A DNA stretch of 25,505 nucleotides from a virus. How positions within the stretch are numbered: the stretch's first letter is position 1; each line of letters opens with the position of its first letter. The translations under genes were made by a program, and so were the position numbers. The stretch is taken from the IMG/VR virus record IMGVR_UViG_3300033571_024429, positions 1-25,505 of that record; one strand, given 5' to 3'. Positions 1,433 through 14,517 of this stretch are shown here, one piece after another. A model generated the notes under the pieces. The model was not told the DNA's origin. It did no database searches and saw nothing but the letters and a program-made list of their open reading frames with translations.

Positions 1433-2053
1433 TTAGGAACAGTGTGTGATTCGCGGCGTGCCAGGCTGCCACACGCGAACGCGAGCGCGAGCGTGAGACT
1501 GGACGATCGGCACGGATGGCGGGATGACCGACAGCTCCGTCGGCTGTTCGCCGCGTGGAGCGTACGTCCAGTGCGTGGTATCCGGCGGCACTGGCCACGC
1601 GAGTGACACGCCGAAGGCCCAGAGGGCCATACCTACCACAATCCACACCAGTAGGAGCGTAAACTCAAGCCAGTTTGCGCCAACCTTGCCATCCGACAGC
1701 GTCATAAACTCAATGACGGCACTCGTGGCCTTCGGAGCATAGGCGAACCACACCGGGAAGCCGCAGATGACGACGCCAAGCGAGAACATCCCAAAACCAA
1801 CCAACTTGCGAGCGCCGATACCGCAGGTGTCCTCGAGCGTCCACGATGGCGTGCGCGGCTGCGCATGCTCCGCCTGCTCGACGCGATCCTCGACCTGCAC
1901 GTCGCAACGCGGCGCGAGGTAGATCACGGCTAGCCTGTCCGCTTGCATGGCCTGCGGTGAGGATCGCCGGATCGTGTGCATCACCACACCTCGTTCCTGA
2001 GAAAGCCGCTTCTGTAGTTCCTCGCGGACCAAGTTAGACTTTGTCGTAGTCAT
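1433..2053 (-). CDS. Two-TM membrane protein of GC-rich island
   Basis: 206 aa with much higher GC than the rest of the window, especially below ~1960. The N-terminus is a charged helical cytoplasmic-type segment (residues 1-80, basic near RRSSPQAMQADR). Membrane helix 1 is at ~83-105 (VGFGMFSLGVVICGFPVWF) and helix 2 at ~128-153 (LLLVWIVVGMALWAFGVSLA). The tail is Pro/Arg-rich. The ATG overlaps the TGA of a 27-aa reading frame (ATGA) and has no strong SD of its own. No family is recognised. Its composition and its place beside a tRNA-like gene suggest recent acquisition from a high-GC genome, or an assembly join. The function could be a membrane-acting accessory such as a holin or superinfection exclusion factor, which is speculation. 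Confidence 0.65.
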   Translation of the reverse strand: MTTTKSNLVREELQKRLSQERGVVMHTIRRSSPQAMQADRLAVIYLAPRCDVQVEDRVEQAEHAQPRTPSWTLEDTCGIGARKLVGFGMFSLGVVICGFPVWFAYAPKATSAVIEFMTLSDGKVGANWLEFTLLLVWIVVGMALWAFGVSLAWPVPPDTTHWTYAPRGEQPTELSVIPPSVPIVQSHARARVRVWQPGTPRITHCS

Positions 2054-2133
2054 CTAAAACTACCGTGATAATATGTGTGACCTACTCGTTCTATCGTAGG
2101 TATGGGATCCTCTGCTATAGTGCTTAATTTCAT
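2050..2133 (-). CDS. Possible 27-aa leader peptide
   Basis: An ATG at 2133 opens a 27-codon frame (MKLSTIAEDPIPTIERVGHT...) whose TGA overlaps the ATG of the 206-aa membrane protein as ATGA. That junction is typical of translational coupling and is found repeatedly elsewhere in this window. Against it, there is no good SD upstream and the frame is short. The CCTAC/GTAGG inverted repeat at 2081-2100 lies within it. It may be a true leader, the truncated front of an older gene cut by the GC-rich island, or chance. Confidence 0.3.
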   Translation of the reverse strand: MKLSTIAEDPIPTIERVGHTYYHGSFR

Positions 2134-2160
2134 TTTTTGAGAAAATATGCTTAATTGGTG

Positions 2161-2277
2161 GCCGGTGGCTAGGATTTGCACCCGCGACCTGCGATCGATT
2201 TTGTAGAATCGCCGCTCTAGACTTCCCCCTAAAGGTGATACCTTTAGATTGGATCCCGAAGGCTGAGCTACACCGGG
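2161..2277 (-). tRNA. Aberrant tRNA-like gene with expanded D-arm and large anticodon loop
   Basis: On the minus strand the order is tRNA-like. CCGGTG at 2276-2271 pairs with CACCGG at 2167-2162 (acceptor, with a C-C mismatch at 1:72). T8-A9 is followed by GCTCAG opening the D-arm and GAGC closing it. The anticodon stem is GCGAT/ATCGC, the variable loop AGGTC, and the T-arm GCGGG-TGCAAAT-CCTAGC. Oddities are strong. The D-loop is about 47 nt instead of 8-11 and holds a CTAAAGGT/ACCTTTAG hairpin. The anticodon loop is 12 nt (TCTACAAAATCG). T55 is G, and the T-stem needs a bulged A. No anticodon can be assigned safely. It may be a decayed tRNA, a tRNA carrying an insertion, or a tRNA mimic. A CCA occurs just downstream but out of register. 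Confidence 0.55.
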
Positions 2278-2325
2278 TAGTCGATCAATGAAGGTCGACC
2301 ACACTTCCACCATTACTCTAATACG

Positions 2326-2652
2326 TCAAATATTTGATTTGATTGTGACCTTAGCAGCGCTAGCTGATATTTTCTTTACGTGTTCTATTATTATACCATC
2401 GTCGACTAATCTATTGAGTAGATCAGGATCTTGCTTAAATCTTTGCTCGTCCACGACCCAAGATTTTTTCTCACCTCCGGCGTATGGCACGCTGATACTT
2501 ACTTTACCTAATCCAGCGACTAATATTTCTTGGGTCTTCCCACCTGCCCATTCTCTAAGCTGTTCCTTGACAGGAACTAACTCAGCTGTAAGGCGATCGA
2601 TCTCTTGTTGAATGCGGATTGCCCTGGCGGCTAATTCTTGTGCTTCTGTCAT
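2326..2652 (-). CDS. Hypothetical protein, coiled-coil N-terminus
   Basis: 108 aa, not recognised. Residues 1-35 are a charged amphipathic helix (AIRIQQEIDRLTAELVPVK) likely to form a coiled coil. A β-rich part with VAGLGKVSISVPYAGG follows, then a polar helix and an Ala/Lys-rich C-terminus. The ending in short β-strands and the helical hairpin resemble small phage accessory proteins of the Gam/Gp157 type, but the match is only in general shape. The start at 2652 faces the plus-strand gene at 2658 with only five bases between the two ATGs. The SD is poor. Confidence 0.55.
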   Translation of the reverse strand: MTEAQELAARAIRIQQEIDRLTAELVPVKEQLREWAGGKTQEILVAGLGKVSISVPYAGGEKKSWVVDEQRFKQDPDLLNRLVDDGIIIEHVKKISASAAKVTIKSNI

Positions 2653-2657
2653 TTCAG

Positions 2658-3008
2658 ATGCCTAGTAGATATCGCATGAAAAGGAGATCGCCATCACCAC
2701 AACAGATCAAGGTGACCAGAAGGATAACTTCGCCATTTATCGAAGCCATCCCCAGTCAGATAATCCACTTCGACACCTATATCTACGCTGTCGTTAAAAG
2801 AAAACCACACAAAGATCGGCCCACCTTACCTTTTGGCGTGGATGTCAGGATTGATCCTGCTATATTAGATTGGAAGAGCAAGACGATAACTGTGATCATA
2901 CCACTGGATATCAACGCCGGGATAGATTCGATAGAGGATCTAGCTCCTGATTGGTATGAATCTGTGGAAGCAGCTTTTCTTTCATTGATGCATGCGATTC
3001 TCCTATAG
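2658..3008 (+). CDS. Hypothetical plus-strand protein
   Basis: 116 aa from the ATG at 2658; a second in-frame ATG is at 2676. Neither has a convincing SD, so the start is uncertain. The body looks like a real globular protein: basic N-terminus (MKRRSPSPQQIKVTRR), then strands in HFDTYIYAVVKR and TITVIIPLDI, and a helical end (YESVEAAFLSLMHAIL). No family is recognised. Its last 98 bases overlap the end of the minus-strand 300-aa gene head-on, an unusually long antisense overlap. One of the two C-termini could be over-extended, although both frames close naturally. Confidence 0.45.
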   Translation: MPSRYRMKRRSPSPQQIKVTRRITSPFIEAIPSQIIHFDTYIYAVVKRKPHKDRPTLPFGVDVRIDPAILDWKSKTITVIIPLDINAGIDSIEDLAPDWYESVEAAFLSLMHAILL

Positions 3009-3813
3009 GGCCGCGACGCTTGACCTTATAATACCGGACTGGTCTAGGGCCGTATAGGCTGTGATCACCTGGACCGTACACACCAGAGGATTGATAGTGC
3101 CAAAAAGCAGTCGTGAGTATCGGCTTGGCCCTATATGCTAAATATAAAGCTATCAATCGTTCGAAGACATGCGGCGTCCAAAATCCTACATCCCTCATTC
3201 TTAATCTACTGATAATACTCATCAATTTATTACCCAAATAATCTAGAGTCTGCCTAGTACAAGCGAATTGATGACTGTATATCATCTGAGGCTGTGTATC
3301 GAATGCCCATTCATAAATGTCCGGATCATAATTCTTAATTATGTCCCACACATACACACCATTGTCAAAACAATGAATCTTATATGGGTCTTTATCAGGT
3401 ATTAGGTTTGCATCCTCTTGGATCAATATAGATTCCCAGATGTTTTGATAGGCCGCGGGAGCTGTAAGGGCCACTGACACTCTGTCATCCTTGTCTAACC
3501 ATTTATCGATCTTATTCCATATCGTGTGTGGTCGAAAGTGTGGGCGCACGTCTGTATGAAGAAAGGCAACGTGGTTACCTCCTATCAAACGATCGGCATG
3601 CTCCCACACAGTTAATATTATGGAAGTCTCGAAAAGTGCTGAATTCCAAGCAGCATAGGTCGGATAAAAATCGCCTGCTTCCGATAAGTCAGCCCCCTTG
3701 ACTTTAGAAGCACCGCAGGATATAGTCGTCAACTTAACCAGCTTAGAGTTAAATGTGCTCCGCGGCACCAAATCTGCAGATTGTGGGTGTAACAGTACTA
3801 TTGCATTAATCAT
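2911..3813 (-). CDS. GT-A-like glycosyltransferase family protein (uncertain)
   Basis: 300 aa. It starts ATGA on the stop of the upstream 285-aa transferase, so the two are co-translated. The N-terminus MINAIVLLHPQS and the FLHTDVR motif at ~84-90 (strand followed by an xDx-like element) resemble the nucleotide-sugar-binding end of a GT-A fold. The neighbour's YAHQDVR at ~65-71 is a close parallel. The middle has Trp/Tyr-rich segments such as YPTYAAWNSALFETS, seen in DUF4422/polysaccharide-type transferases. The tail is Lys/Arg-rich. Donor and acceptor are unknown. Presumed role: adds sugar to a phage or host surface glycan, together with the surrounding transferases. Confidence in the gene is high and in the family moderate. 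Confidence 0.6.
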   Translation of the reverse strand: MINAIVLLHPQSADLVPRSTFNSKLVKLTTISCGASKVKGADLSEAGDFYPTYAAWNSALFETSIILTVWEHADRLIGGNHVAFLHTDVRPHFRPHTIWNKIDKWLDKDDRVSVALTAPAAYQNIWESILIQEDANLIPDKDPYKIHCFDNGVYVWDIIKNYDPDIYEWAFDTQPQMIYSHQFACTRQTLDYLGNKLMSIISRLRMRDVGFWTPHVFERLIALYLAYRAKPILTTAFWHYQSSGVYGPGDHSLYGPRPVRYYKVKRRGPIGESHASMKEKLLPQIHTNQELDPLSNLSRR

Positions 3814-4667
3814 AGTCTGTGCACGTCTAAAATCCCTCTACTCTGGTCAGTAGTCAACCTTACGTTGGAAATACCCATTGCCCGTATCTTAACTTCTTGC
3901 CCATCATCAGATACTATAGACATTGGTATGTAGCTTGTGAGTTCCTGGTCGGCCCAATGCATATGTGTTCCTAACAATTCTGGGTATCTCATCTTCCATT
4001 TTTGGTGCAAGTATCGCAATTGTGGCCAATATCTATTGTCATCTGATATACTAGCTGAATACTTACCGTAATGTACTATCGGCAAATAAGTGCAATATAC
4101 CTGGTAAGCAGCTGATCTTGCTTGTAGACACAGATCCACTGCATAAAAGTGAAAGCCATCGAACATCGAATCAAATCTAAGCCCTGACTTTTTATTAACC
4201 ACCATCAAACACTCGTCTACGCAATGAGCCAACGCTAGCTGTTTTGTGCCAGCCCAATCTGGTTGCGAATTAGGGATGGGGTCACCAAACCAAACAGAGC
4301 CTATGGCCACGGTATCCTGATTGAGTGCACCTCCCCATCTACCTATATCGGCTCTTCCATACTGTAAATCTATGCCGGCCGAACCTAATACGGCCCAACC
4401 TTCTGACATTCTGCTTATATTGTCAGATAAAATATCAAACCAATTATATAATAATCGGACATCTTGATGCGCATATATCAGATTATCGGATCTAGCCACA
4501 TCCGCGCCAATGTTTAATGCATTGCTAGCAGAGTATCTATTATCTTGGTTGAATATTGGTATTATTTCTACGTCGTATCCATCCCTAGTCTCATAGACCG
4601 ATTTTAACAGACATTCGTCAAAAACGTCAGGTTGGGAAATACAGCAAATTACCGAAAAGTCTGGCAT
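3810..4667 (-). CDS. Glycosyltransferase, StrF/GT2-like (PF13712 type)
   Basis: 285 aa. The front half has the pattern of the glycosyltransferase-like family with StrF similarity. A hydrophobic strand (FSVICCI) comes first, then EIIPIFNQDN. SASNALNIGADVARSDNLI leads into YAHQDVRLL, whose HQD replaces the usual DxD. Later parts (AHCVDECLMVVNK, FDGFHFYAVDLCLQA) fit the acceptor side, with Asp and His residues expected near the metal and base. No signal or membrane segment is seen, so it acts in the cytosol. It leads the minus-strand pair with the 300-aa protein and starts 39 bases from the divergent 76-aa gene. Likely role: sugar transfer in a surface-glycan pathway. Confidence 0.75.
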   Translation of the reverse strand: MPDFSVICCISQPDVFDECLLKSVYETRDGYDVEIIPIFNQDNRYSASNALNIGADVARSDNLIYAHQDVRLLYNWFDILSDNISRMSEGWAVLGSAGIDLQYGRADIGRWGGALNQDTVAIGSVWFGDPIPNSQPDWAGTKQLALAHCVDECLMVVNKKSGLRFDSMFDGFHFYAVDLCLQARSAAYQVYCTYLPIVHYGKYSASISDDNRYWPQLRYLHQKWKMRYPELLGTHMHWADQELTSYIPMSIVSDDGQEVKIRAMGISNVRLTTDQSRGILDVHRL

Positions 4668-4706
4668 TGGCCAAATTTTACGATAACCGTTACAAAGGAG
4701 GCTTAC

Positions 4707-4937
4707 ATGGCCAGCAATCTTACGACCATAACCAACATCTCCAACCAGATCATTCCAATCCTAGTCAATTCGATCGGTCCTGCCAGTGCCAATGAAAATT
4801 CTGACCTTCGATCCCAGGTAAGCAACCAAACATCCATAGTCCCTGGTGCGCAGATCACTCTCGAGACGCTACGTCTTGATCTTGCCCAGTTACAGCAATT
4901 AGGTAGGAAGAAATTAATCACATTTGTGTCTCGTTGA
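4707..4937 (+). CDS. Small probable virion-associated protein (76 aa), strongly expressed
   Basis: The start at 4707 is fixed by AAAGGAGG seven bases upstream, the best ribosome site in the window. A strong GC hairpin follows the stop. The protein is polar and Asn/Ser/Gln-rich at the front (MASNLTTITNISNQIIPIL). It ends in a pattern SIVPGAQITLETLRLD...LITFVSR, which looks like a short β-hairpin plus helix plus strand. The final part resembles residues ~15-50 of the 647-aa glycosyltransferase in spacing (P..-I-L---...-L-I..V). A monocistronic plus-strand gene with strong signals suggests a high-copy product such as a decoration, neck or fibre-attachment protein. The function is inferred only. 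Confidence 0.7.
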   Translation: MASNLTTITNISNQIIPILVNSIGPASANENSDLRSQVSNQTSIVPGAQITLETLRLDLAQLQQLGRKKLITFVSR

Positions 4938-4975
4938 TATATACTGGCACACTTGATTGCCAACCATTAGCACCC

Positions 4976-5006
4976 GGAGCCGCCTGATGGCGGCTCCTAC
5001 TATTTC
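4976..5006 (+). terminator. Strong hairpin terminator after 76-aa gene
   Basis: GGAGCCGCC-TGAT-GGCGGCTCC forms a perfect 9-bp, seven-G/C-pair stem with a four-base loop at 4976-4997, followed by TACTATTTC. The T-run is interrupted, so it is a somewhat weak U-tract behind a very stable stem. It lies 39 bases after the stop of the 76-aa gene and just before the plus-strand GT2 gene. It most likely ends or attenuates transcription of the small gene. Confidence 0.75.
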
Positions 5007-5022
5007 ATAACATATATAAAGT

Positions 5023-5772
5023 ATGCTATTCGACCCCAGTCCTACACAAATCATAATGGTCACATATCATAGGCCAAATGATTTTTCTAACTGTATTCAG
5101 TCGATCTTAGATAATACTAATTGTCCATTCCACCTATCGATTATAGATAATTCTATGGGCCACATAGATTCTTACCTGAATGAGTATCGTGATCTTCCTA
5201 ATGTCACCATTTACGCCAATGATACTAATATTGGCAAAGGGGCTTCAGTTAATAAGTGGTACCCTACCGTTATGATCCATAATCAATTGGCTCATTTCGT
5301 TTCGATAGATGCTGATATAGTGGTCTCCGAAGGCTGGTTAACCGAGCTTATTAGATCATTTTATTATTTAAAACAAGCCACAAAAGTGGCGATGATAGCG
5401 CCAGCTATTTGTAATCACGATTATCAGACATGGGACTATCAAACGTCTAACCAAATGGTGATGCACAATCCTATTCATCTTAATCCGGTCTTTGACTATT
5501 ATCCGGGTCTATATCATAATAGACATACTGCTGGGCCTTTATTTATTATTGATACTAGATTCTTTGAATCTACTGGCATGTTCTATGACAAGCAATTGTA
5601 TGGGGCAGATGATGGCATTCTGTGTGCCAGAGCATATCGACACAACGCTTTTGTTGGTATAAATAGCAATGTGATGGTCAAACATCTAAATATCGATAGT
5701 GACGATGAATATATTGCTTGGAAGAAACGCAATATCACCAAGGACGTGGACCTACATGGTCGGTGGGATTGA
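5023..5772 (+). CDS. GT2 family glycosyltransferase
   Basis: 249 aa GT-A fold enzyme. The N-terminus is classic GT2: IIMVTYHRPNDFSNCIQSIL (residues ~10-29), LSIIDNSMG (nucleotide-binding strand), then NDTNIGKGASVNK. The DxD metal motif is in VSIDADIVVSEGW (~91-103). The acceptor side has GPLFIIDTRFFESTGMF and the D-D near LYGADDGILCARA, matching the usual ED/DD catalytic-base position. It is the only plus-strand enzyme in a minus-strand cluster. The SD is weak (AAAG before ATG) and it sits right behind the hairpin, so low-level read-through is likely. Its end overlaps the sulfotransferase end by 38 bases. Donor sugar unknown. Confidence 0.85.
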   Translation: MLFDPSPTQIIMVTYHRPNDFSNCIQSILDNTNCPFHLSIIDNSMGHIDSYLNEYRDLPNVTIYANDTNIGKGASVNKWYPTVMIHNQLAHFVSIDADIVVSEGWLTELIRSFYYLKQATKVAMIAPAICNHDYQTWDYQTSNQMVMHNPIHLNPVFDYYPGLYHNRHTAGPLFIIDTRFFESTGMFYDKQLYGADDGILCARAYRHNAFVGINSNVMVKHLNIDSDDEYIAWKKRNITKDVDLHGRWD

Positions 5773-6379
5773 TCTTATACGTCGGATAAAACCTATCTAT
5801 TACTCTTCTTTCTACGTTCATCACTCGATTATATATGTCTTGTTCATACCTTGCCCAATATTTTGATGGCTTACACCCCATATCTGAGTCGTTGGTTCGA
5901 GCAATACTTTTAATGCTACGTAGATCGTAATTCAATCCTATCTTATCTAATGCCTCAACTACTCCATTTATACCTTCTTCTAAACGTATAATATGTTTTA
6001 CACCACCAGGGACACCATTCAAAAATTGATCTATTTCATAGCTATACCAACCATCTGGTTTGTATTCTAAAGCATTAACCACAAATCGATTGAAATCGTT
6101 ACTTGCACAGTTATAGTCCAGTGGATGAGTTGGTTGCCAACCGTGCTTCATTCTGAATGCCCACCTAGATTGGTACCATGTTATAGGATGTCGCACCATA
6201 CTAAATATAAATCTTTGCCTATACCATTGCTCGTCATATATCTGTAATAATTGAGGGAAATGAGAATGTTGCTGCCCTACTTCAATAGGTTTAGATATTT
6301 GGCGTAGGATCCTAGACAACCACACCCCACCGGTCTTGGGGATATGCAAAAATAGATATTTATCAGTCGCAAGGGCCAA
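5735..6379 (-). CDS. Sulfotransferase family 2-like protein
   Basis: 214 aa. It starts with TTG at 6379, preceded by GGGTGA eight bases upstream; no ATG fits before the conserved motif. Residues 11-21, LHIPKTGGVWL, form the 5'-phosphosulfate-binding loop of PAPS-dependent sulfotransferases (typical HIPKTGGTS). Residues 61-72, MVRHPITWYQSR, are the 3'-phosphate-binding block (Arg and the Ser after it). The family transfers sulfate from PAPS to hydroxyls of carbohydrates. The length is normal for the catalytic core without a membrane anchor, so it is cytosolic. It lies five bases after the CgeB-like transferase in the same operon, which points to sulfation of the sugar built by these enzymes. 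The host must supply PAPS. Confidence 0.8.
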   Translation of the reverse strand: MALATDKYLFLHIPKTGGVWLSRILRQISKPIEVGQQHSHFPQLLQIYDEQWYRQRFIFSMVRHPITWYQSRWAFRMKHGWQPTHPLDYNCASNDFNRFVVNALEYKPDGWYSYEIDQFLNGVPGGVKHIIRLEEGINGVVEALDKIGLNYDLRSIKSIARTNDSDMGCKPSKYWARYEQDIYNRVMNVERRVIDRFYPTYKINPTDHVGPRPW

Positions 6380-6383
6380 TTAT

Positions 6384-7340
6384 TCACCCAATCATCTGTC
6401 GAGCCTGTTCGTGCATTCCCAATGCTGCCAACAGTGAGGACATGCGGTGGTGATAGGTCTGACTTGTTAATACTTCTTCCTGTTGCTTCTTAACCAATGC
6501 TATTCTTTCAGCATCATTATTCATGTAATGCATACACATTTCGCCAAAATGCTCGGGACTAGCTGCTACTACTACCGAAGGGATCAACCTTCTAAGGTGC
6601 ATCACTGCGTCGTGGACTACTAAGGTCCCACAAGCCGCCAATTTAAACGCCCGTTCTGGTATGTCGATGCCGAACATTTGTGTATGCAACTCAGAAATAC
6701 ATGGACCGATCTTACCACTATTCAAAAATGCATTGGCCCGATCACTGGCTAATATCCCATCACATAGATCCTTAGGCCACTCACCCCAACCTCGTAAAGC
6801 CACTTTCTTATGGCGTTCTTTCGCATTAGCTATAGCAGGGATCAGGTATGTGTCAATAGTCTTTGCTTTGTACGGCCACCTGCCACCAAGATATACCATA
6901 TCTATATCACGTTCTTGGTATGATTTAATTTGTTTGAATATGACCGTGTCAGCTGCACAGGGCATTGGCACCCAACCAAATCCGTATTCGGTCGTCCATC
7001 CGCTCCATATCAATCGGTCGTCTTCTTGGCCATATCCAAATACTACATCTGGCTTTTGTTCCACGACCCATTTAACGTTCTGCTCTGATTCATTGATACC
7101 ATTGATCTCTACTGGCCCATATGGATTGACGTGTATGGCCACTTTACAATTGCGAGATTTCGGGATAGGCTGTTGATGACCAGAGCACCCGATATACAGA
7201 TCTGGCTCGAATTCGTACCAAGACTGTGGCTTCCCATCCCATCTTCTTGTATCATGTCCTTTGTCTCTTAGAGCATTCTGCCACCCGTCCGAAATGTACC
7301 CAAATGCACCTTCTGGCCTGTGGCAAAGCAAGACTTTCAT
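6384..7340 (-). CDS. Glycosyltransferase, GT-B type (CgeB/GT4-like)
   Basis: 318 aa. The N-terminal Rossmann half (MKVLLCHRPEG, then NCKVAIHVNPYGPV, DVVFGYGQ) and the C-terminal half have the shape of CgeB/spore-maturation transferases. IDMVYLGGRWPYKAKTID is the inter-domain segment. FGIDIPERAFKLAACGTLVV near residue 225-245 matches the donor-binding consensus P-x-R-x-F-E-x-x-A-x-G, with Lys in place of Glu. A helical tail with a C-terminal-type MHYMNNDAERIALV follows. It overlaps the double GT gene upstream by ATGA, so it is translationally coupled. Donor and acceptor are unknown, and the Glu-to-Lys change could affect donor ribose binding. Confidence 0.8.
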   Translation of the reverse strand: MKVLLCHRPEGAFGYISDGWQNALRDKGHDTRRWDGKPQSWYEFEPDLYIGCSGHQQPIPKSRNCKVAIHVNPYGPVEINGINESEQNVKWVVEQKPDVVFGYGQEDDRLIWSGWTTEYGFGWVPMPCAADTVIFKQIKSYQERDIDMVYLGGRWPYKAKTIDTYLIPAIANAKERHKKVALRGWGEWPKDLCDGILASDRANAFLNSGKIGPCISELHTQMFGIDIPERAFKLAACGTLVVHDAVMHLRRLIPSVVVAASPEHFGEMCMHYMNNDAERIALVKKQQEEVLTSQTYHHRMSSLLAALGMHEQARQMIG

Positions 7341-9280
7341 AGTAGACCTACTTCCTGTAAATAACGATTATATCCGTTCTTTGATAACTGTTCGATTTGA
7401 GCTTTAACTCGCTCTGCCACAGTCAGTAATTTTAAGCCATCTTCTAGCTGCTTGTTCTTATCATGATGGCAGTTCCATCCTTCTACTCGAGGATGCCAAA
7501 GGTGGACAAGGTCGTAGTACCTGTCTTCGTGCCACTTTCCTACACTAGATAATCTTGTGTAAAAGTCACAATCCTCACACCCGTACCCCCAGAAGTCTTC
7601 ATTAAAAGCACCACAACTCCAGTACGCATCCTTGGTGCATGCTATTGATCCTCCCTCGTAGTATTCTACTACTCTTTCACATTTAGCAAAGTCTGATAGC
7701 TCTCCTGTAGTGTTCAAGTTCTCGCAAGATGACTGATCAGTGTACAGTACTCTAGCACCTATATGGCACGAGTCTGACTTCCGTAGAATATCCCATATCT
7801 TCTGAGCATAATCACCAAATGTAACCATATCAGCATCGTGTAAAATTAATGCGTCATTTGGTGCACGGCATACAGCTTGATTAAATGCGTAAGATTTATT
7901 AAACAAAGGGTTATCTGCTCTCGGCGTATGGATATATTCTATGGGTACTAAACGTTCTGTTGATAGTTTAGATAAGTTATCTTGTTCGGATACGATCACA
8001 TTAATGACCGGAAATCTTTGTGCTCTGATATTATTAACCACTGTCCTTATAGATAAACTCCTATCTGAATCTCTATAAGGAATAATATATGTAATCTCGG
8101 GCAATTCGGTCGACGGACTAGGTAGCTCTCTAACACCTTCTTTCCTCGTATCAAAGGTCACCTTGGCTGACCTTAATAAACCATCTCTGTCCTTTACCGC
8201 CGATGGTTGATTATGCAACATAAAAAAGCGGCTTGACCCACCTACATCAAAAAATCCACGGGGCTGCAAATCAAACTCCCACGCTTTTGCTGACCAATCT
8301 ATATGCTCCATACCATATAAGCCATATTTTTCATTAAAGAACCCACATTTAGACAGCATCAAATGTGTGAACGCCAATATAGCGCCATGAGGCTTGTCGT
8401 CTACGCGATTTAACGTCAACCCACCACAAATCACAGCGGTGCCTTCTTTAGCACCATATACACCTGGCTGACGCATCATGAAATGATGCATGCCTGTTTG
8501 TTCTAATGCCTTAGCATAAAAATATTCCCATCCGGGATCTAACACTTCTACGTCATCATTCAACAATATAGCATACTTGAATCTAGACAAACACCTTAGG
8601 AGACGGTTACTATTGCCAGCAACACCTAATCGCTGGTCATTCTTCATTATTACCAAATCTCCAGACGATTTTAGCTCGTCTAGATATGCGGATAGCTCAG
8701 GGTCTGTGCTGGCATCATCGCTTATGAAAATTGTGGTTTTGTTTAAATCTGTGTTGCGTCTAATAGATGTGACCAACCTTCTCAAACAGTTGAGTCTATT
8801 ATATGATAAGATGCCTACACCTATGTTATTGCTTATTGGTATCCGCTTTCCTTTAAGGAATGGAGCCAACAGCTCCATTCCTTTACGCCGGCTAGATATG
8901 CCTACGATCTTGCCACTTGCTGGCGTTTTACTCTTTTTCTCCTTTAAGCCTTTGATCTTCTTCTGAGGCACGACTGCCCTATGTAACAATAAGTCACTAT
9001 GCCTGGGCGTATCAGGTGGTAGTTTTTTGATCTTATTGGTATCTGACTCAATAACTGGCCTCGGCTTTGGCTTAGATATCCTTTTGACCAGTGGTGGTAT
9101 GACTCTTTGTGTCCGCAGATTTGGCCCGCCAGCATGGACAGGCTTGATCAATCCTTTGGCCACATAGATATCATAATACTCAGGCAATATTATCTTCGAG
9201 TATGGTTTAACCTTTATTACTATCCTGTCTGGCCCCTCCAACGCAACCATAAATGGGTTAGGGTTTACGTATTCTGGCAT
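7337..9280 (-). CDS. Double GT2 glycosyltransferase with N-terminal module
   Basis: 647 aa in four parts. Residues 1-50 are a small β-type module (PNPFMVALEGPDRIVIKVKP, then IILPEYYDIYV...GLIKPV) not usual in GTs. Residues ~52-147 form a basic Lys/Pro-rich linker. Residues ~152-390 are a GT2 domain: GVGILSYNRLNCLRRLV, FISDDASTD, LNDDVEV at 240-246, and HIDWSAKAWEFD as the base region. Residues ~396-620 are a second GT domain with ITYIIPYRDSDRS, LHDADMVTF at 480-488, and GYGCEDCDFYTRL at 565-577, like the galactosyltransferase C-terminal GxGxEDxD signature. It probably makes two consecutive linkages, as chondroitin/hyaluronan-type polymerases do, and the module may tether it to a particle. TAATG links it to the preceding gene. 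Confidence 0.85.
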   Translation of the reverse strand: MPEYVNPNPFMVALEGPDRIVIKVKPYSKIILPEYYDIYVAKGLIKPVHAGGPNLRTQRVIPPLVKRISKPKPRPVIESDTNKIKKLPPDTPRHSDLLLHRAVVPQKKIKGLKEKKSKTPASGKIVGISSRRKGMELLAPFLKGKRIPISNNIGVGILSYNRLNCLRRLVTSIRRNTDLNKTTIFISDDASTDPELSAYLDELKSSGDLVIMKNDQRLGVAGNSNRLLRCLSRFKYAILLNDDVEVLDPGWEYFYAKALEQTGMHHFMMRQPGVYGAKEGTAVICGGLTLNRVDDKPHGAILAFTHLMLSKCGFFNEKYGLYGMEHIDWSAKAWEFDLQPRGFFDVGGSSRFFMLHNQPSAVKDRDGLLRSAKVTFDTRKEGVRELPSPSTELPEITYIIPYRDSDRSLSIRTVVNNIRAQRFPVINVIVSEQDNLSKLSTERLVPIEYIHTPRADNPLFNKSYAFNQAVCRAPNDALILHDADMVTFGDYAQKIWDILRKSDSCHIGARVLYTDQSSCENLNTTGELSDFAKCERVVEYYEGGSIACTKDAYWSCGAFNEDFWGYGCEDCDFYTRLSSVGKWHEDRYYDLVHLWHPRVEGWNCHHDKNKQLEDGLKLLTVAERVKAQIEQLSKNGYNRYLQEVGLL

Positions 9281-9930
9281 TACCGCACCACTTTCGCATA
9301 CAATGGCTTGTATGTCTGGCCTGCTACCTGATCTAGTTTAAACTTTGAAGGTTTGAGTATCAAGTCGCCTTCATATGACCCGGCTCCTTTGAATATAGCA
9401 TCTACGGCTCTCTCGTCTAATATTTCAATCTTCATAACCTCCTGCGTCCTGACCACCTTACCAAAAACATCTTTGACCATACCTGGCCCGATCATCTTAT
9501 TTAATGATACCTGCACATCACATAAGACTAAACCTGATTCGTCTATCCCAAAGTAATATTGTGCTTGATCCAGTTTTATCACCCTCATCAACTCTAGTAT
9601 CTTTATCAGTTCGGATCTCATGAATTCGACGCATAAATTTTGGATATTTTCGTCGACCCCTTGTACTAAGTCTATACTATTTCCTGCCCAATCGCCAAAC
9701 AGAGTCACCACCTGGTCCGTGTCGTGATGCCTATAAATTAATACCGAAATACCTTTATCGCCATAAGATCTTACCACATAACAAAACATATTACATAAAG
9801 GGCTATTATGAGCGAATATATCGATTTGGGGGTATGGTAATATCTTAGGAAGCGTAAGTCTAGACGTACCAGATATTTTCTCTGGTGGTAGGGTCTCGTT
9901 GCAAGATTGAATATTTGCCGTTCTTCGCAT
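9280..9930 (-). CDS. Hypothetical protein, 216 aa
   Basis: No family recognised. ATG at 9930 with GGAAGTGAG upstream, starting 71 bases inside the previous gene. The N-terminal half has β-strand-like hydrophobic patches (NMFCYVVRSYG, ISVLIYRHHD). The middle is a helix (LCVEFMRSELIKILELMRVI). Then comes YYFGIDESGLVLCDVQVSL, a repeating strand pattern, and the C-terminus is Lys-rich. The mixed α/β shape and position among densely overlapped genes suit a virion assembly or particle-associated protein, but direct evidence is absent. Its stop is shared with the start of the double GT gene (TAATG), so their amounts may be linked. Confidence 0.65.
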   Translation of the reverse strand: MRRTANIQSCNETLPPEKISGTSRLTLPKILPYPQIDIFAHNSPLCNMFCYVVRSYGDKGISVLIYRHHDTDQVVTLFGDWAGNSIDLVQGVDENIQNLCVEFMRSELIKILELMRVIKLDQAQYYFGIDESGLVLCDVQVSLNKMIGPGMVKDVFGKVVRTQEVMKIEILDERAVDAIFKGAGSYEGDLILKPSKFKLDQVAGQTYKPLYAKVVR

Positions 9931-10225
9931 TTCTCACTTCCGATAGCTTGAGATTAAAAGTGTTCTTACCTTGTTCTGCTTCATTCATGGTAAACAACAA
10001 TATGGGCAACCCTTCGAAAATTACATTTATCTGATCATCGACATTATTAGTTACCACGCCATACCAAGTAGTAAACCATTTTGTCCATATGATTATATCA
10101 CCATATGTTGGCGTGTATAGAGTTCTCGGCCTATGGTACGCTAGAGGAGGTAGTGTCAACCTCTCATTGCCGCCTAACCCTAGTAAGCCGGTGGGCGAAG
10201 ATTTCATACCTGTATTGGTAGCCAT
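9860..10225 (-). CDS. Hypothetical protein, 121 aa
   Basis: No family recognised. It begins inside the previous gene (62-base overlap) at ATG 10225 with a weak site (GGGACATGAGCG). An internal ATG at 10207 after ACAGGT is an alternative start. The front is Gly/Pro/Leu-rich (SSPTGLLGLGGNERLTLPPL). The middle has Trp-rich β-like sequence (GDIIIWTKWFTTWYGVVTN), followed by INVIFEGLPILLFTMN. It resembles small β-barrel tail-completion or connector proteins only in general shape. It ends 71 bases inside the next gene. Confidence 0.6.
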   Translation of the reverse strand: MATNTGMKSSPTGLLGLGGNERLTLPPLAYHRPRTLYTPTYGDIIIWTKWFTTWYGVVTNNVDDQINVIFEGLPILLFTMNEAEQGKNTFNLKLSEVRNAKNGKYSILQRDPTTRENIWYV

Positions 10226-10673
10226 CGCTCATGTCCCAAGTGATGATTGCTCCATCCCGACTGCCGCCGGTCCATTGTTTGATCAATGTGTCTACCCACG
10301 ATTGACCATTTACATTGCTGCTCAGTGCTACCGGCCTTACTACGCGGCCGTTTATTTCTACTTCTTGAACAGACTCACTTAAGTAACTGGCGGCTTCCTG
10401 CCTCTTTTGGATTAATGTAAGACCATCTATTAAAATATCTCTTTTGCTTCTGGATTTAGTAGTAGCAGTAACACTATATGTGATATTTTTACCACCCTCT
10501 GTCTCGTTTAACATTGTTGATATAGGTACTTCAACGCTGGGCATATTCTTAGCAGGATCAAACTCTGCCACTACTCTTTGTATATCGGCTACAGATCGTA
10601 TGACAACTGGCTTTAATATATCAGGACTCAGCTTGCGTTGCTCTCTCTGCAAAGCTTGTTCCAGTTGCTCCAT
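10164..10673 (-). CDS. Hypothetical protein, 169 aa
   Basis: No family recognised. The start at 10673 is well supported: GGAGG lies seven bases upstream, inside the end of the membrane-protein gene (53-base overlap). The N-terminus is charged and helical (MEQLEQALQREQRKL), and the middle has a Thr-rich β-like stretch (NITYSVTATTKSRSKRD). A helix with QKRQEAASYLSESVQEVE follows, then β-strands ending WDMSDGYQYRYEIFAHR and a basic RVRRQ tail. Neighbour overlap suggests co-regulation with the 121- and 216-aa proteins. A structural role is a guess. Confidence 0.65.
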   Translation of the reverse strand: MEQLEQALQREQRKLSPDILKPVVIRSVADIQRVVAEFDPAKNMPSVEVPISTMLNETEGGKNITYSVTATTKSRSKRDILIDGLTLIQKRQEAASYLSESVQEVEINGRVVRPVALSSNVNGQSWVDTLIKQWTGGSRDGAIITWDMSDGYQYRYEIFAHRLTRVRRQ

Positions 10674-11040
10674 ATTGGTCCTCCAAGTTAAGAGAGATCG
10701 AGATGACTCGTCCTTTTCTGATTAACTCATAAACAACATGGATCCAGTTCGACACCCTATGTATCACGAAAATAGTTACCAAACTACCAACTAATGGTGG
10801 TGCCCCGACCAATAGTACCATAAAAATCGATACCCAAACACTCGTACAATACCCACATGTAATTAGACCATATATCCAGGAATAGACTTTAGTGGATGTA
10901 GTATCAACAGGTGGTGTTGGATAGGCATGTTTGAATATCGACTTATGCAGTGGCACGAACAGTGTGGATGACGTTATTATCTCAGATATTGCCTCTACGG
11001 CTATAGACATTAGCGTGATCGTAAACAAAACAGCTATCAT
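10621..11040 (-). CDS. Membrane protein, DUF1360-like
   Basis: 139 aa with three likely membrane spans: residues ~1-20 (MIAVLFTITLMSIAVEAISE, signal-anchor type), ~52-74 and ~80-95 (LVGSLVTIFVIHRV). Between spans is LITCGYCTSVWVSIF, which matches the CxxCxSVW motif of the DUF1360 membrane family found in phages and spore-forming bacteria. Function is unknown in that family. The C-terminus is a soluble tail with a Glu/Ser end. The start overlaps the upstream 92-aa zinc-ribbon gene by ATGA. The CxxC pair could bind metal or form a disulfide. Confidence 0.7.
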   Translation of the reverse strand: MIAVLFTITLMSIAVEAISEIITSSTLFVPLHKSIFKHAYPTPPVDTTSTKVYSWIYGLITCGYCTSVWVSIFMVLLVGAPPLVGSLVTIFVIHRVSNWIHVVYELIRKGRVISISLNLEDQYGATGTSFAERATQAES

Positions 11041-11315
11041 CGTTTTATCTTACGACAACTGGGATTAGAGCATTGTTCTCTTTCTCTGCCAGCTATATTT
11101 ACCATTACCGTAGTATGGCCACATTGTGAACATCTCTCTGTTTGTACCAATCTCTGTCTTACCGGTAATGGCGGAGTCCTTGCTTGTTCAGCACCCACAT
11201 TATACTTAGACAACCTCTGCGTGGGCACACGGTTAGGCTTGATGTGCTGAGGTCTCTCTATCTTTTGAGGTCTTATGGTCCGACTGGGACGGCCAGACCC
11301 CCCACAACATCCCAT
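11037..11315 (-). CDS. Small basic zinc-ribbon protein
   Basis: 92 aa. The N-terminus MGCCGGSGRPSRTIRPQK is Cys/Gly-rich. A basic Pro/Arg/Gln linker follows. Near the C-terminus, CSQCGH...CSNPSC (two Cys pairs, CxxC and CxxxxC) makes a probable zinc ribbon, with a RKIKR tail. It starts by TAATG overlap with the stop of a 46-aa gene whose N-terminus is MSCGGS, so the two may be related. A DNA- or RNA-binding role is possible. The family is not recognised. Confidence 0.7.
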   Translation of the reverse strand: MGCCGGSGRPSRTIRPQKIERPQHIKPNRVPTQRLSKYNVGAEQARTPPLPVRQRLVQTERCSQCGHTTVMVNIAGREREQCSNPSCRKIKR

Positions 11316-11455
11316 TAATGCCTCTGATCTATACTATTATAGGGGTGAAGCTTTCGGACTTTCACAGGCTTGACCTTAAGAGGTCTTAATATCTTATTTT
11401 TAAGCGGTTGATCTACTATTTTCTTAGTAAATGCTACACTACCACCACATGACAT
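11315..11455 (-). CDS. 46-aa basic protein, MSCGGS N-terminus
   Basis: A short frame between the endonuclease VII relative and the 92-aa gene: ATG at 11455, TAA ending at 11315, sharing its last A with the next ATG (TAATG). The sequence begins MSCGGSVAFTKKIVDQPL and continues Lys/Arg/Pro-rich (KVKPVKVRKLHPY). The exact fit of the junction and the MxCGGS start shared with the next protein (MGCCGGS) support a real gene. It has no strong SD, and a second ATG at 11459 in another frame is not used. The role is unknown. Confidence 0.6.
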   Translation of the reverse strand: MSCGGSVAFTKKIVDQPLKNKILRPLKVKPVKVRKLHPYNSIDQRH

Positions 11456-11465
11456 ACATGCCACA

Positions 11466-11903
11466 TTACTCTCCTACCAGCTTCTGGCGATATAATTTGG
11501 CTCTTTCCGCTGAATTTTTACATTCCTCTATCACCTGCAGAGGGTACTGGTATGCTTGGAGTATATCATATTGTTCTTCTTTCGTTTTCCTGCTGAATCT
11601 GCGTACTAATTGTCTAACTCCTACCGGATGGTATGGGCCCTGCTCTGCCTCCAGGTACGCGGCTATATTTCTTAATACTCTGGGTAGTGATAATTGACTA
11701 CTCACACACCTTGACCTAAAACAGTTCTCGAGTTTGCCAATAAGAATATTACCTTCCGACGATATAACACCTCTGATCCTACCCGTTGAATGGTCGTGGT
11801 CTACAACCGGCTTATATTCTTCTATATCTAATATGGCACATCTTGCCGACTTATATTGTAGCCTGTATTCGATTAACCCTTTTTGATTTACATATTTGGC
11901 CAT
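11466..11903 (-). CDS. Endonuclease VII-like HNH junction resolvase
   Basis: 145 aa. Residues 35-45, DHDHSTGRIRG, match the recombination endonuclease VII motif (T4 gp49 DHDHE..G..RG). N52 and the GKLENCF segment (56-62) align with the gp49 N-x-x-E-x-x-x-x-x-K-F region. A helix LPRVLRNIAAYLE follows, as in gp49. T4 enzyme ligands C23, C26, C58 and C61 hold a zinc ion. Here only C22 of the first pair remains (CAIL), and the second pair site reads SSEGN, so the structural zinc is probably absent. Expected role: cutting Holliday junctions and branches before packaging. It lies by structural and recombination-related genes with GGGTGG upstream. Confidence 0.75.
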   Translation of the reverse strand: MAKYVNQKGLIEYRLQYKSARCAILDIEEYKPVVDHDHSTGRIRGVISSEGNILIGKLENCFRSRCVSSQLSLPRVLRNIAAYLEAEQGPYHPVGVRQLVRRFSRKTKEEQYDILQAYQYPLQVIEECKNSAERAKLYRQKLVGE

Positions 11904-11935
11904 AAACCACCCAATATATGTTTTACATCAGGTGC

Positions 11936-12733
11936 TCAGGCTTTATTTCTTAAATTGGGTATACGATGATCGCGCCTTTTGCCATTTTCTAGATCAAATA
12001 GCCACTGAACAAATCCTATGCGTGGTTTCCCATTACTTGGCGTAACACTGTGATAGGCCGGCTCCGCTTTTAGATTGCAGATGAACACTCTATTATAGGT
12101 AGGCACTATCTGGTCAATCAGCACCAGATCGTGCGGCTTATTATCCGGGAAGCCACCGCCTGGTGTTGCGGTATGAATCCTACCACATTGTGTTAAAAAA
12201 TCCATTCGCCCTGTTGGAGCATTGACCTTGAAGGCCCTGGGGTCATGTGTCTCATCGATCCTCCATAATTGTAGTAGCCCACCGTCTGCTGCTGTCCATC
12301 CCTTATTAAAATAAGTAATGACCACTAAATCCCTGATCGAAGAATCAGTATGGATCCAAAATCCGTCCGCCTGATCTCTATGATACCTTAATTTGACCTC
12401 CACACCGGCTGGCTCTGATAACCTCGTATCTGTGATATACGCACAATACCTATGCCACTCTGCATCAAAAAACAGATCTGCGCCTACGTCTGTTTTATCT
12501 GCAAACTTAACAGATCCGTCATAGGGAAGTTTCACACCATCTACTACTCTGTCTGCCTTTTCGCTAAAAGATAAAGAACTGTGTTTTGCTATCAACTGTT
12601 CTATCTTGTCCTCCCTAAAAAAGTTGTCTAATACTGCGTATTTTGCTATAGGTTTGGCACATATCGATTGCCTGATATCATCGACCACTCTGTCTTCTAG
12701 GTATATCGGGTTAATCCAGTTATCTATGCTCAT
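11936..12733 (-). CDS. 2OG-Fe(II) oxygenase
   Basis: 265 aa from the ATG at 12733, chosen because AGGAAG precedes it and it overlaps the upstream stop as ATGA. The frame is open further (ATG 12766) but that has no SD. Iron ligands are H128 and D130 in WIHTDSS and the distal His in AYHSVTP, followed by the 2OG-binding Arg in KPRIGFVQW ten residues later. The rest is a double-stranded β-helix pattern (DGFWIHTD, LVVITYFNKGW, GGLLQLW). Family members hydroxylate small molecules, protein side chains, nucleic acids or sugars. T4-like cyanophages carry similar oxygenases. Here the sulfotransferase and glycosyltransferase context suggests a surface-modification substrate, which is inference. Confidence 0.8.
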   Translation of the reverse strand: MSIDNWINPIYLEDRVVDDIRQSICAKPIAKYAVLDNFFREDKIEQLIAKHSSLSFSEKADRVVDGVKLPYDGSVKFADKTDVGADLFFDAEWHRYCAYITDTRLSEPAGVEVKLRYHRDQADGFWIHTDSSIRDLVVITYFNKGWTAADGGLLQLWRIDETHDPRAFKVNAPTGRMDFLTQCGRIHTATPGGGFPDNKPHDLVLIDQIVPTYNRVFICNLKAEPAYHSVTPSNGKPRIGFVQWLFDLENGKRRDHRIPNLRNKA

Positions 12734-13428
12734 GTCGGCTTCCTGAATTTGGATGCGTCTTTCCAATTAGTGATGTGAGTGGGTACGTCCTGGCCGGTAT
12801 GCTTAACACCTTTCAAGTAATCAAGGTCTTTAACATACTCAGGACGCGATCTCTTAGCTTGCCACTCTTTGTGACCTTCTGGATGCCCTTGGTGTAATTC
12901 TCCGATGGCGGCACCAGCTACACCATGGTATAGAAACATCTGAGCTATCGGATCGCCTTTATTAATTGTAAATTGCCCTGGCTGATTGATAATGAATACT
13001 AAGCCAAAATTCGACACGCTCCACCAAGCTTCTATGATGGCCTCCATACAGCTATAGGGTAGCCCACGCATATTAGGTATCCCCTTGATATAAACGAAAT
13101 CGCCTGGATCATCAGTGACGGGGATAAACTTAGCTTGCACTGTAAAACTAGCAAAAGATGCGTGGTCATCTACCTCATAATGCGAGGACTTATCTATGTG
13201 TTCTATTACTGCTCTCTTGTGAACGTCTCCATTCCAAGTAACCTTAAATGTGCCAGGAGACAATATATAAAAGCCGAGACTGTTGGCCATGCTCAACGGT
13301 AAACAATGCCTGGCATGATTCTCAGTGGCTCTATTATCTTCCCACCAGTTTCTATATCTGATAGCAGGTATAGGGGCTAGTTCAGTATCATAGCCTGGCG
13401 ACAAATAAACTTGTATCCTCTCCCCCAT
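12730..13428 (-). CDS. DUF6065-like protein
   Basis: 232 aa. The pattern NRATENHARHCLPLSMANSL followed by GFYILSPGTF and the NFGLVFIINQPGQFTINKGDP segment recall DUF6065 proteins of phages and bacteria (function unknown), a mostly β protein with cupin-like strands. Residues YSCMEAIIEAWW form a helix. The C-terminal ~50 residues are charged (KEWQAKRSRPEYVKDLDYL). It starts two bases after the 94-aa gene stop and ends at an ATGA overlap with the oxygenase. The tight linkage to the oxygenase suggests a joint pathway. The family call rests on memory of the pattern only. Confidence 0.55.
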   Translation of the reverse strand: MGERIQVYLSPGYDTELAPIPAIRYRNWWEDNRATENHARHCLPLSMANSLGFYILSPGTFKVTWNGDVHKRAVIEHIDKSSHYEVDDHASFASFTVQAKFIPVTDDPGDFVYIKGIPNMRGLPYSCMEAIIEAWWSVSNFGLVFIINQPGQFTINKGDPIAQMFLYHGVAGAAIGELHQGHPEGHKEWQAKRSRPEYVKDLDYLKGVKHTGQDVPTHITNWKDASKFRKPT

Positions 13429-13430
13429 AA

Positions 13431-13715
13431 TTATGGTGCTACGTAACCGCCTGCGGCACTACGCTTATAAGTGATTACCATTGTCTGATTGATATGAGAT
13501 AAGACATAATCATTAGCCGCCTCAAGCTTGAGGTATTCTGTCACATTAGGATTACCAGAGGTGTTAGGAATAGTCGCATCCTCCAGAACCAGGTGATCCA
13601 TGCTTGAATTGAGTACCTGTTTGATCTGAAGATCGGGACTATTTTTCTTGATAATGTTCCCTGCAGGATCAACGCTAAAAAGCCCTACCCTAGCCACATG
13701 GATACCAATAGCCAC
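13431..13715 (-). CDS. Hypothetical protein, 94 aa (GTG start)
   Basis: GTG at 13715 with a strong GGGAGGT seven bases upstream is the best start; there is no ATG nearby in frame. The sequence has short β-like segments: IHVARVGLFSVDPAGNIIKK, SSMDHLVLEDATIPN, and VLSHINQTMVITYKRS. It could be a small virion or tail-tip adaptor domain, but no family is recognised. It lies between the sulfotransferase and the DUF6065-like gene in one operon. Confidence 0.6.
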   Translation of the reverse strand: MAIGIHVARVGLFSVDPAGNIIKKNSPDLQIKQVLNSSMDHLVLEDATIPNTSGNPNVTEYLKLEAANDYVLSHINQTMVITYKRSAAGGYVAP

Positions 13716-13725
13716 GACTACCTCC

Positions 13726-14517
13726 CTATTTCAGTAAATGTACTAAGCCTAATTGTTCTAGTTTAGCCTGCAATCGCTCTATATTAGTTACTCTTTCCGC
13801 TAGCTCATCTGAATTCTGCTTGGAGCAATGGGCTATCACAGGATACTTAACCCCTATTAACCACGGCAATAATTCCTCCACCCTCTTGTAATCATATCTG
13901 AAGTGCTCATATATCAATATTCTCCTATCCAATAGACGTGATCTGTCTAGTAAGTATTCCTCTTCGCGTGTTATTCTGTTGATGTTGTCTTCTAAATCCT
14001 CTATCGGTACTTCTACTTTAGCCCTCTTTACCGGCCCATTCCATACTACACATTGTCTAGTTTTTTTAACGATAAGATCAGATATCCATTGCATTAATAT
14101 ATTCGATCTGCGGACCACTATAGTTCGAATATCATACCTATGCAAATATTCCCAGAATTTCTTTTCCTGTTTCAGAGCCATAATTTGATGTGCCATGATT
14201 TTAAAACCTGCTGCCACACGGCCATCTATTTTTCTTTTAACCCATGAGATGTTTTTCATATCTTCTGATACGTTATCAAACGTGGGTGTATAACAAAGAT
14301 CCAAAGCTCTGCATATATCATTTTGGATTATTTCGTCTGGGATTAAGGCGTGCCGTTCTTTATTCTCCGGTTTGGCGGGCTGCATATGGTGCTTATGCCC
14401 GACAGGATTAATGGGTTCATTGATACACCTAATTCCTGCCGGTGCGCCTGAATGTATCAAACTGGTGACTAATGTGGAGCCTGTCCTGGGCTGCGCCAAT
14501 ATTATAAACTTTTTCAT
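13726..14517 (-). CDS. Sulfotransferase (Stf0/NodH-like)
   Basis: 263 aa. Residues 9-17, QPRTGSTLV, are the PAPS 5'-phosphosulfate loop (RTGST/L). VVRRSNILMQWISDLI at ~134-149 carries the 3'-phosphate-binding Arg-x-x-N. The Arg/Lys-rich region fits PAPS binding. The GSTLVTSLI + NEPINP arrangement (residues 13-38) is typical of bacterial carbohydrate sulfotransferases. The C-terminal helices (ERVTNIERLQAKLEQLG) may drive dimerisation. It has an ATGA overlap with the exonuclease gene and only a poor SD, so expression is likely coupled. It is the second sulfotransferase in the window and not closely similar to the 214-aa one, suggesting two sulfation sites or steps. Confidence 0.8.
   Translation of the reverse strand: MKKFIILAQPRTGSTLVTSLIHSGAPAGIRCINEPINPVGHKHHMQPAKPENKERHALIPDEIIQNDICRALDLCYTPTFDNVSEDMKNISWVKRKIDGRVAAGFKIMAHQIMALKQEKKFWEYLHRYDIRTIVVRRSNILMQWISDLIVKKTRQCVVWNGPVKRAKVEVPIEDLEDNINRITREEEYLLDRSRLLDRRILIYEHFRYDYKRVEELLPWLIGVKYPVIAHCSKQNSDELAERVTNIERLQAKLEQLGLVHLLK

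Follow-up and report, generated by a model that had tools for sequence, protein, structure and literature searches.

The window analysed here, the whole 25,505-nucleotide stretch of the IMG/VR record IMGVR_UViG_3300033571_024429, is part of a large uncultured aquatic phage, and the open reading frames discussed below are present in it at the coordinates given. Its phage origin is seen from an IMG/VR contig of 32.8 kb, with part of which it shares 99.98–100% identity. Between positions 2911 and 14517 the window carries glycosyltransferase (GT) genes, two putative sulfotransferase genes (ST1 and ST2) and an oxygenase gene, and the neighbours of this module are genes for a single-stranded DNA-binding protein, an exonuclease and a helicase, i.e., replication rather than structural genes. 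A megablast search of the GT/ST1 block against GenBank phages gave no match, nor did tblastn searches for ST1, ST2, the GT encoded at 6384–7340, the oxygenase and the DUF6065 protein in named phages. A tRNA-like stretch near 2160–2280 was supported by neither ARAGORN nor Rfam.

Five GT genes had been proposed in the first-pass annotation, and four of these hold, with Pfam scores above the cut-off. The largest, located on the minus strand at 7337–9280, matched PF00535 (4.8e-15), PF02709 (2.6e-7) and the PHROG 2456 glycosyltransferase (1e-22) and has two GT domains, a GT2 domain at approximately amino acids 156–259 and a galactosyltransferase-like domain at approximately 398–580, together with a conserved N-terminal extension. 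It is found in all relatives (L146–L162) and overlaps by 4 bases with a GT4-like gene of the Glyco_trans_1_2 type (6384–7340, minus strand; PF13524, 6.2e-16), which is present in 17 related loci with 38–68% identity. The family 2 glycosyltransferase gene at 5023–5772 (PF00535, 7e-8) is on the plus strand, convergent with ST1 through a 38-base tail-to-tail overlap, and is kept in L146–L150 and L154. The fourth gene (3810–4667, minus strand; Glyco_tranf_2_5, PF13712, 2.7e-11) has orthologues at 34–78%. In contrast, the last gene of the block (2911–3813, minus strand) is GT-like by position only: it is conserved with the block, but its eight orthologues matched no Pfam family, except for a chance KNOX1 match, and no PDB entry.

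The ST1 gene (5735–6379, minus strand) encodes a Sulfotransfer_2/SULT-like protein, which, judging by its motifs, its modelled fold and its orthologues in 12 related loci, belongs to the PAPS-dependent sulfotransferase superfamily and is predicted to have the corresponding activity. Single-sequence PDB searches with either ST1 or ST2 gave nothing useful, and profiles were required. ST1 matched the PHROG 3347 galactose-3-O-sulfotransferase with E 2e-9; its match to Pfam Sulfotransfer_2 was below threshold (E 0.0077), and since the score of 16.8 bits is under the curated cut-off of 22, the protein is placed at the superfamily level only. When its AF2 model (pLDDT 91.6) was compared with the PDB, the best 50 entries were all PAPS sulfotransferases (Z 9.6–11.0, 166–184 residues). 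The 5′-phosphosulfate-binding loop (5′-PSB) reads HIPKTGG, and its K15 and G17 do not vary among the 33 sequences compared. Equally invariant are the 3′-PB residues R63 and S71, eight residues apart and aligned with the R..S of SULT, and His38, which aligns with the SULT histidine and which, as in the family generally, would be the catalytic base. Thus, ST1 shares with SULT and the heparan sulfate 2-/3-/6-O-sulfotransferases the fold (Z approximately 10–11), a HIPKTGG-like loop and a histidine ahead of RxP...S, but differs from them in being viral, soluble and smaller (214 amino acids), with an identity of approximately 8–17%.

ST2 (13726–14517, minus strand) overlaps by 4 bases with the 5′-3′ exonuclease gene and has orthologues in L146/147, L148 and L149/150. 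Its AF2 model (pLDDT 79) found as the top fold match Stf0 (1tex), with Z 13.3 over 197 residues and the next family at Z 11.7; Foldseek gave E 5e-5 against Stf0, and the profile match to NodH (9vki) had E 0.002. The Pfam Sulfotransfer_3 match reached only E 0.048, and ST2 itself did not match PF09037, whereas its homologue L003:10001-10672 did (3.3e-9). The P-loop RTGST together with R137 and S146 is invariant in five sequences, and the window contains the DNA pattern of this P-loop a single time, whereas none of 100 shuffles contains it. A genome scan for bacterial relatives of ST2 confirmed none. From its fold and motifs, ST2 is therefore assigned to the PAPS sulfotransferase fold class as an Stf0-like, NodH-type enzyme with predicted activity. 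Stf0 (trehalose 2-sulfotransferase) and NodH have in common with it the P-loop, the Arg/Ser pair and the invariant Glu34 following the P-loop; ST2 is distinguished by an identity of 16% to Stf0, a long post-P-loop insertion and a phage operon with an exonuclease. The earlier assignment of both proteins to PAPS-type sulfotransferases is thus borne out, with PAPS motifs present in each and folds matching PAPS sulfotransferases or Stf0, and the alternative of another P-loop family devoid of PAPS-binding residues did not hold in structure prediction and profile searches.

Next to ST2, also on the minus strand, are a small conserved protein belonging to no Pfam family (13431–13715), kept in most relatives and present in two copies in L154, a DUF6065 protein (12730–13428; PF19541, 3.4e-23) and the oxygenase (11936–12733). 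The DUF6065 gene accompanies those for ST2 and the oxygenase, and its product is 66–83% identical in L146, L148 and L149. The annotation of the latter gene as a 2OG-Fe(II) oxygenase stands: it fits the prolyl-4-hydroxylase-like families above the cut-off (PF13661, 1.9e-8; PF13640, 7.6e-7) and keeps the predicted Fe and 2-oxoglutarate residues, with HTD...H (HxD and the distal H) and the arginine that follows the distal H unchanged among relatives (four sequences compared).

An oxygenase next to GTs and sulfotransferases could also signify DNA hypermodification, whereby a base is hydroxylated, glycosylated and then sulfated for protection against restriction. The adjacent single-stranded DNA-binding protein, exonuclease and helicase genes suit such a function, and base modification based on GTs and sulfotransferases has reportedly been proposed for phages (Iyer 2013, as cited in PMC10829341). 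However, the oxygenase did not match Tet_JBP at E ≤ 0.1 (a genome search for Tet_JBP was discarded because its control was silent), none of the GTs fits the T4 DNA-glucosyltransferase families of Pfam, and the thymidylate-synthase/hydroxymethylase family (PF00303) was absent from seven large contigs of related phages, in which the controls worked, the window itself being a fragment. We consider this explanation highly unlikely.

The conservation of the locus across related phages divides it in two. Twelve other viral contigs, representing seven distinct phages of up to 275 kb, show the collinear order GT-GT-ST1-GT-GT-X, with an ST1 identity of 38–75%, so the expected conserved neighbourhood does exist for the GT-ST1 block. 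The second cassette, consisting of ST2, DUF6065 and the oxygenase, is more variable and was kept in three distinct relatives; others have different sulfotransferases. Therefore, the genes between 2911 and 14517, previously regarded as one set, are better described as two cassettes with different conservation, and a single operon for both sulfotransferases is rejected. Five more distant loci (two of which are truncated at the end of the locus) keep the GTs with no visible ST1, indicating that sulfation is not universal. The ST1 distances correlated with those of the genes at 3810 (r 0.87), 2911 (0.86) and 7337 (0.81), compared to only 0.42 for the single-stranded DNA-binding protein, in a test based on eight taxa and non-independent pairs. 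The sequences indicate purifying selection on both ST1 and ST2, with pN of 0.15 and 0.22, respectively, and 0.20 for the exonuclease gene; pN is quoted alone rather than as a dN/dS ratio because synonymous sites were saturated.

These patterns also bear on whether the sulfotransferases act on a non-glycan acceptor, such as protein tyrosine, a small metabolite or a lipid, with the GT adjacency reflecting accessory cargo. The folds do match tyrosylprotein sulfotransferases (ST2, Z 11–12) and small-molecule ones (SULT) as well, and the position of ST2 differs among relatives. Yet in 12 loci ST1 lies at the same position between the GTs, whose divergence it follows, and the best match of ST2 is a trehalose sulfotransferase, which makes a non-glycan acceptor quite unlikely in our opinion.

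The related phages encode up to five sulfotransferases each, as well as GDP-mannose dehydratase or NDP-sugar genes and a fusion of a GT with a PhyH oxygenase. A formylglycine-type sulfatase is present in four of the seven related large contigs; its use for host prediction gave no host call, as the matches had only 26–31% identity and were spread across Poribacteria, Chloroflexi, Verrucomicrobiota and others. APS kinase was absent from all seven large contigs with working controls, and PAPS is therefore probably host-derived; its synthesis by the phage itself is unsupported either in these contigs or in the 32.8 kb sibling contig. Another phage group does make its own PAPS.

The best explanation, to which we give about an even chance, is that the infecting phage uses this module to produce a sulfated glycan, which most likely ends up on the virion. 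The support for the sulfated glycan suggested earlier is indirect: ST1 sits inside the GT block and diverges with it, ST2 resembles a sugar sulfotransferase, and the relatives add sugar-nucleotide and sulfatase genes. Since the gene arrangement is kept across the lineage, a sulfate-bearing sugar coat or mark is probably made. We infer that the soluble cytosolic GTs would build an oligosaccharide from nucleotide sugars and that ST1 would sulfate it with host-made PAPS, as would, in some lineages, ST2 or another sulfotransferase exchanged for it. The acceptor would most likely be a virion surface protein, giving new particles an anionic and variable glycan, and the oxygenase may hydroxylate the acceptor, creating an attachment site. 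The nearest annotated phage relatives of the large GT are mycobacteriophage GTs (22–24% identity), and glycosylation of mycobacteriophage virions is known (PMC11256854; PMC12619734, citing Freeman 2023). Against the virion speaks the location of the module among replication genes, which also suits DNA modification, and no virion protein has been linked to it.

Alternatively, where the host bears sulfated glycans on its surface, the GTs and sulfotransferases might remodel its surface polysaccharide during infection, be it capsule, LPS or EPS, for example, to block superinfection or progeny rebinding. The sulfatase of the relatives fits such hosts, and bacterial enzymes of the Stf0 and NodH types transfer sulfate to sugars bound at the surface. 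But the GTs and sulfotransferases of the module are all free of membrane segments, and the ORF list shows neither a lipid-carrier GT nor a Gtr-type flippase in the block; we regard host remodelling as fairly unlikely.

Phage sulfotransferases had been considered seldom described in functional terms, and their function is reported as unclear (PMC10580990); their annotation is not rare, a single motif pattern giving at least 120 matches. The annotated auxiliary ones (PHROG 3347; Sulfotransfer_3 in OM43 and Synechococcus phages) share with ST1 and ST2 the superfamily, the PAPS motifs and an origin from environmental phages, whereas here a fixed GT-ST-GT block and second, swappable sulfotransferases persist over a deep lineage. 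The mycobacteriophage virion GTs (Che8 and Rita, cluster F) are likewise encoded close together and are distant relatives of the large GT; the similarity of the Che8 GTs to those of the module (E 1e-6 for the best domain when three sequences were searched) is too weak to claim orthology, and, in contrast to the window phage, no sulfotransferase is annotated among the Che8 genes listed. The Moraphages (PMC12619734) are also large phages of aquatic habitats and likewise have more than one core GT (four), a sigma factor, a single-stranded DNA-binding protein and DNA polymerase I, but the main text of that paper reports no sulfotransferase.

More speculatively, and in our estimate rather improbably, the lineage might run its own sulfation and desulfation, the GT-embedded and exchangeable sulfotransferases sulfating a glycan made by the phage as a mark or shield for the virion and the phage sulfatase stripping host glycans (or bound virions), which would amount to a virus-encoded sulfate code on surfaces. 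The fixed sulfotransferase-GT block across a diverse lineage provides a concrete substrate class and a set of orthologues, and it predicts that some phage particles, or host surfaces, carry sulfated glycans. If true, this would have a bearing on adsorption, surface charge and the turnover of sulfated polysaccharides in water.

The gene at 5735–6379 (−), ST1, matches Sulfotransfer_2 in Pfam only below threshold, and PHROG 3347, annotated as galactose-3-O-sulfotransferase, at 2e-9. Its HIPKTGG motif, used as one pattern, matched at least 120 viral stretches. In an alignment of 33 proteins from the motif matches, the phosphosulfate loop, H38, R63 and S71 were kept, and in the profile of that alignment these match the PAPS loops and histidine of SULT enzymes. 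All top 50 structure matches of the AF2 model (pLDDT 91.6) were PAPS sulfotransferases (Z 9.6–11.0, 166–184 residues). Alignment and model make PAPS use by ST1 very likely, as the first-pass annotation had proposed. At 5735–5772, ST1 overlaps a plus-strand glycosyltransferase (GT) gene tail-to-tail by 38 bases; similar overlaps occur in the viral loci L146, L148, L149 and L154.

ST2 (13726–14517, −) is weak by sequence alone (Sulfotransfer_3, E 0.048), and its profile search retrieved NodH at E 0.002. RTGST, R137 and S146 are invariant among ST2, its relatives from L146, L148 and L149, and the distant L003. The best structural match of the ST2 model (pLDDT 79; residues 35–56 of low confidence) is the trehalose sulfotransferase Stf0 (Z 13.3; Foldseek 5e-5), with tyrosylprotein sulfotransferases next (Z 11–12). 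Stf0 has a functional glutamate shortly downstream of the P-loop, and Glu34, invariant in the same alignment, lies in the corresponding region of ST2. The invariant residues and the closest fold bear out the initial reading of this gene as a sulfotransferase.

Of the five GT genes initially counted, four are GTs above Pfam cut-offs, one having two GT domains, which gives five domains in total; the gene count is unproven because the conserved gene at 2911–3813 gave no Pfam or PDB match, even with eight orthologues included. The 2OG-Fe(II) oxygenase (11936–12733, −) was correctly called, its HxD...H and Arg being intact. No membrane segments were found in the GTs, sulfotransferases or oxygenase. 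G003, a large relative, encodes a 776-aa fusion of GT domains and a PhyH-type 2OG oxygenase at 140792–143122 (L141:792–3122, −), reminiscent of protein-modifying GT–hydroxylase fusions, which suggests that hydroxylation and glycosylation share one substrate.

A search with the GT adjoining ST1 returned 18 viral contigs, one of them a sibling of the window. The expected conservation of the neighbourhood was found: the order GT-GT-ST1-(GT)-GT-2911 was collinear in 12 of the 17 others (7 distinct phages once near-duplicates were removed), with ST1 identities of 38–75%. The other five, more distant, had GTs and no ST1, with L159 and L162 ending soon after the GT. In this small sample, ST1 distances correlated at 0.81–0.87 with most block neighbours, 0.66 with the GT gene at 6384–7340 and 0.42 with the ssDNA-binding protein. 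Between the window and L146 synonymous sites are saturated, while pN is 0.15 for ST1, 0.22 for ST2 and 0.20 for the exonuclease; judged from sequence, selection maintains both sulfotransferase genes.

The surroundings are of the large tailed-phage type, with a gp32-like ssDNA-binding protein, endonuclease VII, a 5'-3' exonuclease, and RecA-like and DnaB-like ORFs. The window, a virus record of 25,505 bases, matches part of the 32,790-base sibling IMG/VR contig at 99.98–100% identity; past the shared part, that contig has an ORF resembling NAD-dependent DNA ligase and a gene that is likely structural. Among the large relatives G003 (156.7 kb) is the nearest; it aligns with the window gene by gene and encodes tail sheath, portal and terminase, as well as a Volactin-family protein (PF25216, 1.4e-40; L140:17809–19599, +). 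A short 401-aa protein at 17539–18744 (−), whose weak resemblance to DNA_pol_A is confined to the region near its C-terminus, is possibly a split polymerase. The GC-rich island at 1300–2050 (58% GC in 1001–2000 versus about 43% around), with a 206-aa membrane-type ORF absent from L146, is probably a recent insertion.

A second cassette, distinct from the GT block and next to the exonuclease gene, comprises ST2, a 94-aa protein, DUF6065 (12730–13428, −) and the oxygenase; L146/147, L148 and L149/150 retain it. A different enzyme, of the Sulfotransfer_2 family (E 2.4e-11), occupies the ST2 cassette position in L152/153, and G003 has no ST2 and an extra Sulfotransfer_2-like gene within the GT block (sub-threshold Pfam match, E 0.006). 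The large relatives have further sulfotransferases, as many as five in all in G007; their neighbours are GTs, genes for sugar nucleotides or a giant protein that looks structural. Given this variation, sulfotransferases appear to have been gained and swapped repeatedly in the lineage. In G004, a giant RCC1-repeat/FGE-sulfatase-fold protein lies near a third sulfotransferase-like gene (L180:10494–15572, −; L172:1333–2133, −). GDP-mannose 4,6-dehydratase-like and NDP-sugar genes occur near GT or sulfotransferase genes in relatives (L156:14157–15182, −; L158:14103–15068, −; L160:12273–13280, +; L179:10140–12460, −).

A search of seven related contigs (157–275 kb) for APS kinase found none while detecting its controls, so PAPS is presumably host-derived. 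A distant phage of a different group, L003 (IMGVR_UViG_3300028920_000004), encodes at 1893–11650 an APS kinase (1.4e-58), a CysP-like sulfate permease (1.2e-63, yet under that model's cut-off), three sulfotransferase-like genes and several GTs; together these look like a phage-borne set for sulfate uptake, activation and transfer. In L194 and L200 a sulfotransferase-like gene directly follows APS kinase. A small CTP_transf-like nucleotidyltransferase adjoins or lies near APS kinase in L191–L196 and L200, sometimes with a sulfotransferase next, and might feed APS or PAPS synthesis.

Four of the seven large relatives carry a formylglycine-type sulfatase (PF00884) with CQPSRAS as its formylglycine motif and with conserved active-site motifs: G003:151596–152561 (−; L141), G004:5982–6986 (+; L188), G006:13861–14835 (+; L189) and G007:144630–145556 (−; L187). 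None has a membrane segment or evident signal peptide. They are 43–52% identical to the first of the four, 26–31% to the best bacterial matches found and at most 36% to the sulfatases in named phage records; on these comparisons the predicted enzymes form a distinct clade. The literature searched, with partial coverage, yielded no description of sulfotransferase/sulfatase pairing in phages.

Being soluble, the GTs and sulfotransferases would assemble a glycan and add sulfate to it in the cytosol, where virion proteins or DNA are directly accessible and envelope glycans can be reached only from the inner face of the membrane. That the module makes a sulfated glycan is probable. DNA would be within reach as its target, but the seven relatives have no thymidylate-synthase family enzyme, and none of the window proteins matched Tet/JBP or a DNA glucosyltransferase of the T4 type. 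For the virion, to which we give an even chance of being the target, glycans described on mycobacteriophage capsids (PMC11256854; PMC12619734) are a precedent, though the homology of the window GTs to mycobacteriophage GTs is distant. Phage GTs are already known, as are phage sulfotransferases, whose function is stated as unclear (PMC10580990); what is new is a stable lineage-wide GT–sulfotransferase block, exchangeable second sulfotransferases, and sulfatases in the same phages.
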